Part shown: piece by piece, positions 2,515-23,958 of the stretch
How positions within the stretch are numbered: position 1 is the first letter of the stretch
Layout: each line of letters opens with the position of its first letter
Virus record (IMG/VR): IMGVR_UViG_3300003650_000024
Span: 1 to 28,949 of that record
Direction: 5' to 3' (one strand)
DNA length: 28,949 nucleotides
Source of the DNA: a virus
The notes under the pieces: generated by a model
Told to the model about the DNA's origin: nothing
The model's database searches: none
The model's input: the letters and a program-made list of their open reading frames with translations, nothing else
Made by a program: the position numbers and the translations under genes

Positions 2515-3543
2515 ATGGTAGATTACGAATCATTAACATCCATCATCGCATCAATTAACAAGAAGTGTGGTGAAGATGTACTAATCAGGGGTTCCCAGAT
2601 TAGAGAAGAAGTTTTGCGCGTCACATCAGGCGTACTTGCTTATGACTTAATGCTTGGCGGGGGGTGGCCTGTAAACCAATGGTCTGAAATCATTGGCGAA
2701 GAATCATCAGGTAAAACAGCATTAGCATACAAAACTATTGCCGCAAATCAAAAGATTAATCCTAACTTTATAGCATTGTGGATTGCAGCAGAAGCGTATG
2801 TTCCACAATACGCAAAAGCCGTTGGTGTAGACATTGACCGCCTATGGGTAGTAGAGTCAAACATGATGGAGCAGGTGTACGACATTATTATTAGGGCTTT
2901 AGAGAATAGGGCAGTAGACATGATTGTTCTTGACTCCCTACCATCTTTGATTCCTAGCGATGAAGCCGAGAAAGCCATGGACGAATTTACAATGGGTCTT
3001 GGTGCCCGTTTGACAGGGAAGTTCTTTCGCAAATCATCAAAGTCACAACGCAGGTCACTAATTGATGAAGACAGGCCCTGTACTGGGTTGGTCATTAACC
3101 AATGGCGTGAAAAGATTGGTGTAATTTGGGGAGACAATCGCACTACCCCAGGTGGCAAGGCTAAGAACTTTCATTATTTCGCTCGTGTAGAAGTAAAGCG
3201 TGACGAGTGGCTGAAAGATAAGGAAGAGATAGTTGGCCAGACCATTAAAGCACGTACTATTAAGAACAAGACATACCGTCCACAACAAACAGCAGTAGTT
3301 GACTTTTACTTTACTAAATCAAATGGCTTTACTTTTGGTGACTTTGATACTGTTAAGGACGTTGTAAACATCGCCATAGCCATTGGACTAATCCCACGTG
3401 CGGGAGCGTACTACTCATTTAAAGACCAAAAATGGCAAGGTAAAGAAGCGTTACTCTTAGCGGTTCGTGAAGACCTTGACCTACAGAAAGAACTCAAGGA
3501 CGCTGCGTTTGGGCACTTTGGATTGAAAACACCAGCAGAATGA
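2515..3543 (+). CDS. recA: RecA recombinase
   Basis: Phage RecA-family ATPase of 342 residues for homologous pairing and strand exchange. Walker A is GEESSGKTA (about residues 61-69), in place of bacterial GPESSGKTT. The catalytic glutamate follows in WIAAEAYV (E in the AE pair), Walker B is MIVLDSL (about 135), and the NQW segment near 193 corresponds to the RecA NQ(I/L) switch glutamine. The following KIGVIWGDNRTTPGG matches the RecA L2/TTxGG region. Length is near bacterial RecA (about 350), larger than Sak4-type mini-RecA proteins. ATG 2515 is chosen because AAGGAG lies 6 bases before it; the upstream TTG extension (2446) would only add a shadow of the previous gene. It overlaps the downstream nuclease by ATGA. 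Confidence 0.94.
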   Translation: MVDYESLTSIIASINKKCGEDVLIRGSQIREEVLRVTSGVLAYDLMLGGGWPVNQWSEIIGEESSGKTALAYKTIAANQKINPNFIALWIAAEAYVPQYAKAVGVDIDRLWVVESNMMEQVYDIIIRALENRAVDMIVLDSLPSLIPSDEAEKAMDEFTMGLGARLTGKFFRKSSKSQRRSLIDEDRPCTGLVINQWREKIGVIWGDNRTTPGGKAKNFHYFARVEVKRDEWLKDKEEIVGQTIKARTIKNKTYRPQQTAVVDFYFTKSNGFTFGDFDTVKDVVNIAIAIGLIPRAGAYYSFKDQKWQGKEALLLAVREDLDLQKELKDAAFGHFGLKTPAE

Positions 3544-18994: not shown

Positions 18995-19335
18995 TGAACT
19001 ACTTTACTATAGAGCAGGACAGAGCAGAAGAGCACACCAGGATAGATAATGCCTATCAAACAACTAGCCACTTACTTTGTGACCCTATATACACCTTAAC
19101 AGACATTGCTGAAAAGACAGTCATGTCATTAACTGAACTACGTTATGCTGGTTGGGAAAACCTGTATGACTACATTAGAGGTTTAGAAAACCAAGTAGAA
19201 GTACTAAAAAAAGAAAAAGATACAGAAACACAAAAATTGCATAATCTTGTTGTAAGCATGGAAAGTGTTGTTGCAAATATAACTAATGCATATAGATCAT
19301 CACGGACGGTTGAAGAATACAGCAAGGAAGAGTAG
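18994..19335 (+). CDS. Hypothetical protein with central coiled coil
   Basis: Protein of 113 residues from ATG 18994 (GTG 18991 possible). A helical N-terminal part (IEQDRAEEHTRIDNAYQ), a middle with LTELRYAGWENLYDYIRGLE, then a coiled coil QVEVLKKEKDTETQKLHNLV and a polar tail. Not recognised. Its TAG stop overlaps the GTG start of the WhiB-like gene. Confidence 0.72.
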   Translation: MNYFTIEQDRAEEHTRIDNAYQTTSHLLCDPIYTLTDIAEKTVMSLTELRYAGWENLYDYIRGLENQVEVLKKEKDTETQKLHNLVVSMESVVANITNAYRSSRTVEEYSKEE

Positions 19336-19745
19336 TGTCGCATGCCTGGCAAGGCTCGGCCTTGTGCATTGGTAAGAATTTAGATTTTTGGTACCCACCG
19401 CTAGAAAGTGATGAGCCTGAGCAATACTATGCGATTGCTCGTGAAGTTTGTAATATTTGTCCTGTGTGGATAGAATGTTTGAATGCTGGGAAAACAGAAA
19501 TATGGGGTATGTGGGGAGGATTAACCCCCATAGAACGCAGTGTCTTTAAGGAAAAGCCTAAAAAAACAGCACTACGATTACATGGTACAGCACCCCGCTA
19601 TAGACAAGGATGCCGTTGTGACATTTGTACCAAAGTCCATACAGCAGTAGCAAAAGAAATAAAAGATATTACAATTATTCCTGGATATCGTGTGCCATCA
19701 AGCACAGTTGATCTTTTTGAAATGTTGTATAGGTTGCTCCAGTAA
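19335..19745 (+). CDS. WhiB-like Fe-S regulator with Cys-rich C-terminal extension
   Basis: Protein of 136 residues starting at GTG 19335. The WhiB signature is complete: C11, then C39, C42 and C48 (CNICPVWIEC), which would hold a 4Fe-4S cluster, followed by GMWGGLTPIER, the WhiB Gly-Trp turn that contacts the housekeeping sigma factor. After this, instead of the usual short basic tail, a second motif HGTAPRYRQGCRCDICTKVH appears; that motif is known to me as a separate phage domain (HGTxxxYxxGCRCxxC). WhiB proteins occur only in Actinobacteria and their phages, where phage copies can act as dominant-negative regulators of host septation or immunity. It is followed by a TATAAT element and hairpin rather than a directly coupled gene. 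Confidence 0.9.
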   Translation: MSHAWQGSALCIGKNLDFWYPPLESDEPEQYYAIAREVCNICPVWIECLNAGKTEIWGMWGGLTPIERSVFKEKPKKTALRLHGTAPRYRQGCRCDICTKVHTAVAKEIKDITIIPGYRVPSSTVDLFEMLYRLLQ

Positions 19746-19748
19746 GTT

Positions 19749-19757
19749 TGATATAAT
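19749..19757 (+). promoter_or_regulatory. Extended -10 promoter TGATATAAT
   Basis: A perfect extended -10 (TGn then TATAAT) lies 3 bases after the WhiB stop codon. There is no clear -35. A start about 7 bases downstream would fall at 19764, the first base of the hairpin stem at 19764-19821, so the promoter and the structured RNA fit together. Confidence 0.65.
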
Positions 19758-19763
19758 AGAGGT

Positions 19764-19824
19764 AGACCGTAACAGCAATAAGTGTGTCAACATAGGCACT
19801 CTCAAAAACTTGTTACGGTTTTTT
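19764..19824 (+). ncRNA. Candidate structured small RNA / attenuator upstream of endolysin
   Basis: Positions 19764-19774 (AGACCGTAACA) pair with 19811-19821 (TGTTACGGTTT) to form an 11-bp stem with one G-T wobble, closed by a 36-base loop and running into six T at 19819-19824, like an intrinsic terminator with a large loop. The loop carries AAGTGTGTC (19780-19788), an exact 9-base complement of GACACACTT (19844-19852), which overlaps the ribosome site edge and the TTG start of the endolysin gene. The element may be a 60-nt small RNA or a cis leader controlling lysis timing. Structure is read from sequence; function is inference. Confidence 0.5.
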
Positions 19825-19850
19825 CTATAACTCTATTGAGGAGGACACAC

Positions 19851-20381
19851 TTGATACGCTATTGGATAATTTCTATTTACATACTAATTGGGACAGTAAT
19901 CATAAGTACGAACGAAGAGAGCGTAAAGGAAACGGTTATTACCGCTGACATGATTAGCGTAATAGAACCAAGGATTATTGTGGAACGTTTAGCAGTGGTA
20001 ACGGTAGCACTACCAGAGACACCAACCGTGGTAAAGACTAACAAGCACACACACGTAGAGAAGTCTTGTCCACAATTTGAGGAAGCCTTCAAAAACTATG
20101 GGCTTGAGCCAGTGAGCACCTTTTCGTATATTGCTTACCGCGAGAGCCGTTGTCGGATAAAGGCTATCAATGCAAAATGGGACAAGAATGGCAACATGAC
20201 ATGGGCACTAAACAAAGATAGGTCCTATGACTCTGGCTTATTGCAGGTAAACTCGTCATGGGTTACGGTTACTAAAAACGTCTGTAAACAAGACATATCA
20301 GCCCTATTAACCCTGGATTGCAACCTAAAAGTAGCAAAATACTTGCTAGATAACGGTGGACTTAACCACTGGGGCATGTAA
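19851..20381 (+). CDS. Membrane-anchored lytic transglycosylase (endolysin-like)
   Basis: Protein of 176 residues from TTG 19851, chosen for the strong GAGGAGGA ribosome site 6 bases upstream; the longer frame would start in the hairpin. The first 23 residues (IRYWIISIYILIGTVIIST) form a signal-anchor or signal peptide. After a Thr/Val linker the SLT/lysozyme-like domain has catalytic Glu98 in YRESRC, then SGLLQVNSSW and a late VAKYLLDNGG-LNHW segment. It should cleave the glycan backbone of peptidoglycan outside the membrane. The anchor suggests secretion by the host Sec system, or a signal-arrest-release lysin. No holin is recognised beside it, though small membrane proteins are encoded at 5970 and 25465. 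Confidence 0.85.
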   Translation: MIRYWIISIYILIGTVIISTNEESVKETVITADMISVIEPRIIVERLAVVTVALPETPTVVKTNKHTHVEKSCPQFEEAFKNYGLEPVSTFSYIAYRESRCRIKAINAKWDKNGNMTWALNKDRSYDSGLLQVNSSWVTVTKNVCKQDISALLTLDCNLKVAKYLLDNGGLNHWGM

Positions 20382-23949: not shown

Positions 23950-23958
23950 TGGTACGCT
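23950..23958 (+). promoter_or_regulatory. Promoter F: extended -10 without palindrome
   Basis: TGGTACGCT (23950-23958) is identical to the box of promoter A, and the following TTGGACATAACAACGACAAG leads to AAGGAG before the ATG at 23987, matching the leader of the palindrome promoters. No TGTTCCACGTGGAACA copy lies upstream; instead there is TTAACTTTAAGCG. It therefore appears to be the same promoter class without the operator. Confidence 0.6.

Follow-up and report, generated by a model that had tools for sequence, protein, structure and literature searches.

The gene for a predicted SLT-type lytic transglycosylase (the lysin) in a lake-type actinobacterial phage is preceded by a conserved leader in which an extended -10 promoter element is followed at once by a hairpin and a T run, and this arrangement, which many relatives retain, probably gates the timing or the amount of enzyme production. 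Transcription attenuation at a promoter-proximal intrinsic terminator may well be the means by which the leader gates the lysin gene, a reading that we hold with moderate confidence. To our knowledge, the control of lysis timing in phages of the abundant freshwater Actinobacteria is uncharacterized, and a conserved promoter-terminator leader that lies 5' of a lysin gene and adjoins whiB provides a concrete, testable control point. No description of such a lysin leader was found in the literature, of which our coverage was partial.

The leader lies in a linear viral record 28,949 bases long, which was analyzed at its full length and is called the window here. Comparison of the window DNA with named phages found no close DNA relatives, and the bacterial genomes searched for relatives of the lysin held none; the lysin shows 59% identity over 61% to the DSL-LC01 "transglycosylase SLT domain 1." The presence of a WhiB gene upstream of the lysin suggests that the host is an actinobacterium; phages of Nanopelagicales that carry whiB have been cultured (PMC10202952). 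In the window, whiB is the last gene in a co-directional run, the leader follows directly 3' of it, and the intergenic span from the whiB stop to the lysin TTG is 105 nt.

Features of the whiB-lysin region, in coordinates of the window
Feature	Position	Strand	Basis and remarks
WhiB-like transcription factor gene, directly 5' of leader	19335..19745	+	Pfam PF02467, E 9e-11; PHROG WhiB
Extended -10 element TGATATAAT, just 3' of WhiB stop; -35 poor	19749..19757	+	Sequence; relatives have TATGCT, TAAACT or TACACT at same position
Predicted 61-nt terminated RNA	19764..19824	+	Outer stem pairs 19764/5-19775 to 19810-19821; loop contains an inner hairpin; T run 19819-19824
AAGTGTGTC, complementary to lysin start region 19844-19852	19780..19788	+	Sequence; not conserved in relatives
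SD GAGGAGGA (19838-19845) and TTG start codon (19851-19853) of lysin	19838..19853	+	Sequence; N-terminus MIR common to window lysin and L003
SLT-type lytic transglycosylase (lysin), hydrophobic N-terminus	19851..20381	+	Pfam SLT, E 0.0015, below gathering cut-off

An earlier note on this DNA had proposed an extended -10 promoter at the 5' edge of the leader, a hairpin rising from its predicted +1, and a terminator-like end that would yield a compact RNA of about 60 nt. All of these elements are present in the sequence and recur in relatives whose WhiB proteins are 44 to 63% identical, and the predicted RNA has the expected length; the activity of the promoter we infer from its box. TGNTATAAT occurs a single time on the + strand of the window. 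The 5' arm of the hairpin begins at 19764 or 19765, and the 3' arm, TGTTACGGT (19811-19819), runs into TTTTTT; Ts of that run take part in the outermost stem pairs. Intrinsic (rho-independent) terminators are marked by a stable stem that leads straight into a T run, a feature both present here and conserved in relatives. The fold of 19764-19825 has an energy of -20.0 kcal/mol, far stronger than that of shuffled sequence (-8.1 +/- 2.1 kcal/mol; z, -5.7; 0 of 200 shuffles), a comparison that the note had proposed. A long-loop hairpin with a T tract is found once on the + strand of the window, and Markov-random windows (n = 8) held 0 to 2 each, with a mean of 0.5. A standard scanner missed both the promoter and the terminator because of the poor -35 and the long loop. 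Rfam models recognized neither a known RNA family nor a riboswitch in the leader, and a tRNA search of the leader region found none. The T run and the lysin start are separated by 26 nt, in which we saw no additional promoter. Other promoters in the window have short, unstructured leaders without a hairpin.

Searches with alignments of the lysin and WhiB yielded about 100 loci. WhiB lies directly 5' of an SLT lysin in 52 of them (27 distinct leaders from several clades), a count in which some contigs appear twice or are near-identical; L002, L006 and L007 are a 99.9% identical twin of the window and contribute no independent evidence. These leaders are 74 to 105 nt long and share a common order of elements: the WhiB stop, a TANNNT box 0 to 12 nt later, the hairpin, a T-rich tail, a short spacer, the SD and the lysin. 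The -10 boxes, such as the one at 2678-2683 in L003, were recognized by eye after the sequences had been viewed, and TANNNT is a loose pattern in AT-rich DNA. The layout is kept even in clade D, where the enzyme domain is only ~30% identical to that of the window. The stem is GCCGTAAC...GTTACGGC in the nearest clade, AGACCGTAACA...TGTTGCGGTCT in L009, CGCCCATAG...CTGTGGGCG in clade B, CTTCATA...TATGAAG in clade C, and GCCCC(AT)...(AT)GGGGC in clades D and E, where it lies 3' of a second, 5' hairpin; outside the window clade the stem sequence is wholly different, with a stem and T run still present. T-rich tails occur in all of the WhiB-type clades and are weakest in L086-like leaders (GGCTTCAGTTTTATCC in L086); termination may be partial in relatives with such a weak T tract. 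In L092, no ATG, GTG or TTG stands at the expected lysin start after GGAGAAA (3473-3495); the frame opens TTTATTATAACT, and the uncertain start codon of this lysin is possibly ATT or ATA.

The sequences themselves show the elements, their order, their conservation and the paired changes in the stem. In the five clades examined, leader identity within a clade is 84 to 96%, which matches or exceeds the identity of the coding DNA on either side. In clade B, the leader is 93% identical, versus 81 to 87% for the whiB 3' end and 70 to 71% for the lysin 5' end, and the stretch from the -10 box through the SD is almost invariant (11 leaders). Pairing is maintained in 98.6% of cells of the outer stem across the seven distinct leaders of the window clade, compared with 19 to 47% in slid controls. 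Two pairs of this stem show changes on both sides, one from A-U to G-C and the other among GU, AU and GC. A shuffle test for covariation (15/500) gave limited support, as the alignable leaders number seven and come from one clade.

These observations suggest a model in which RNA polymerase would start at the extended -10 promoter just past whiB, at about 19764, transcribe the hairpin and T run at once, and mostly stop near 19824, releasing an RNA of ~45 to 60 nt. Transcription entering from the whiB operon would meet the same terminator. Because the promoter precedes the terminator, transcripts from the leader promoter and from whiB alike can extend into the lysin only by passing the terminator, so that the lysin would be expressed only from read-through transcripts, arising either by a low rate of leakage or through a phage or host factor that overrides the terminator. 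Promoter and terminator activity, the control of read-through and its timing we infer from this layout. Few strong terminators occur in these phages (13 candidates in four records of 87 to 98 kb). In the phage of L097, three other terminators have a TGTAATGTCC promoter-like box 3' of them, as is usual; the lysin terminator, by contrast, lies after its promoter. The promoter-then-terminator order, the rarity of terminators, the reverse order usual elsewhere, and the unstructured leaders of other window promoters are the grounds on which we read the element as a gate. With a 5' arm that starts at +1, no upstream RNA is available in the local transcript for an antiterminator hairpin. A classical antiterminator hairpin was considered and rejected, as the longest complement to the 5' arm is at most 4 nt upstream and 3 nt in the loop. 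Given this start at +1 and the lack of a good partner in the loop, we favor a protein that acts on polymerase, or mere leakage, over a riboswitch-type switch. No antiterminator protein was seen among the proteins scanned, which represent a subset of the genes. We consider it improbable that the leader belongs to a new actinophage antitermination system, in which the upstream WhiB-like protein or another phage factor would carry polymerase past the terminator and so time lysin expression.

The element could instead simply terminate the whiB operon, with some leakage, and by chance follow a promoter adding some lysin mRNA, with no regulated read-through. Its position directly after the last gene of a co-directional run and the variable strength of the T tract fit this explanation, but the promoter box is conserved 5' of the terminator and not 3' of it, unlike at other operon boundaries in the phage of L097, and we regard it as unlikely. 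Less probable still is a gene for a free small RNA of ~45 to 60 nt whose targets in trans are other RNAs of the phage or the host, the lysin merely lying downstream. An RNA that starts at the base of a hairpin and ends in a T run has the shape of a small RNA, and the loop is conserved within clades; however, the loop is completely different between clades, the hairpin element was always found adjoining the lysin, and of all gene starts in the window it is the lysin start that gives the best match, one that is not conserved.

A hairpin at the very 5' end of an mRNA might also protect the lysin message from decay or space the ribosome site without acting as a terminator. Among more distant lysin loci that lack WhiB, a promoter-like box is often retained together with a hairpin leader, but the T run is mostly absent, and the hairpin could therefore have had another role ancestrally; these leaders combine a hairpin without a T run with a TATCC...CAAAGGAG stretch, as a protective or spacing function would allow. 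Against this explanation, which we judge highly unlikely, the WhiB-type clades all retain their T-rich tails and the hairpin has the strength of a terminator. A TTATCC-NCC-N-CAAAGGAG-like stretch recurs between hairpin and SD in many otherwise divergent lysin leaders (L008, L009, L013, L023, L048, L072 and L110). Within the ~60 bases 5' of the lysin start in the distant leaders of L020, L022 and L080, the loop of a hairpin has the sequence CCCCTCCTT, which resembles an anti-Shine-Dalgarno and lies just 5' of the lysin SD.

The mechanism favored in the earlier note was that the loop pairs with the lysin SD and start, in cis or in trans, and blocks translation. The complement that it reported is there: AAGTGTGTC matches GACACACTT exactly over 9 nt (10 pairs counting one G-U), the 10-bp duplex has an energy of -12.6 kcal/mol, the match is the best among 58 starts in the window, and an H-type pseudoknot looks sterically possible. 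Nevertheless, the complementarity is modest evidence, with a p of 0.004 in a single-pair shuffle test. The longest complements of window gene starts to their own upstream regions are 9 (the lysin), 8 and then several of 7, which places the match at the top of an ordinary distribution. The segment is partly inside the inner hairpin and hence is not a free loop, and a forced pairing that replaces the terminator hairpin is less stable (-21.7 versus -25.2 kcal/mol). In 22 relatives the longest stretch of the predicted RNA that complements the start region of its own lysin is 4 to 6 nt, a chance level, versus 9 in the window; the longer match is confined to the window phage and its twin, and the duplex energies of relatives' own pairs are no better than those of cross pairs with the start sites of other relatives. 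The pairing is best taken as chance or as private to the window phage, and a translational block built on it is very unlikely. The note had named loss of the stem or of the complementarity in close relatives as evidence against its proposal: the stem is kept and the complementarity is lost. Its broader suggestion of a brake on lysis survives in part, as a plausible control point on the lysin that recurs in relatives, shorn of the base-pairing mechanism.

Several known systems resemble attenuation in the lysin leader to different degrees. The 6S RNA of phage lambda is ~194 nt long, whereas the window RNA would end near +60. At the lambda-type late promoter pR', Q reads through the terminator (PMC6266700), and the pR'-tR' region shares with the window the succession of promoter, short RNA, intrinsic terminator and lysis gene. 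The window differs in having no identified Q homologue or qut site and an actinobacterial host, and its genes 3' of the lysin code for a glycosyltransferase and a helicase, not a virion operon. In Pseudomonas aeruginosa, the alpBCDE lysis genes are preceded by tB, a terminator that starts 54 nt past the start site and is read through by AlpA (PMC7969949). There, too, a terminator near the start site gates lysis genes, although the window hairpin begins at +1, its -35 is poor, and no AlpA binding element or AlpA-like gene was identified in it. The layout of promoter, close intrinsic terminator and lysis gene is found in the window as an arrangement of sequence alone. By analogy, the best reading is that the leader works like lambda pR'-tR' or P. 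aeruginosa PalpB-tB; we do not claim membership in the Q or AlpA class, since no antiterminator or loading site was identified. Early transcripts of gene e (lysozyme) in phage T4 have their ribosome site masked by a leader hairpin (PMC3014915), and RNA structure 5' of the lysin could likewise hold back lysis in the window, but a fold of 19764-19900 leaves the SD and start outside the main, stable helix, in a weakly structured region. PAK_P4as15, a phage RNA of ~550 nt that also adjoins an endolysin gene, is antisense to that gene (PMC12197685), whereas the window element is a same-strand leader.

Elsewhere in the window, the palindrome TGTTCCACGTGGAACA occurs in five exact copies (21745, 23729, 25556, 26582 and 27863; 0.15 expected at up to 3 mismatches). 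All five are followed 0 to 12 nt later by an extended -10 TGNTACGNT, and most then by a GGACAACAA leader. The copies may constitute a repeated promoter module that resembles an operator or parS, of a kind with the 17-bp repeats carried by cluster O mycobacteriophages (PMC4351075). A further promoter-like box of the TGGTACGCT type, at 23950-23958, has a similar leader and lacks the palindrome.
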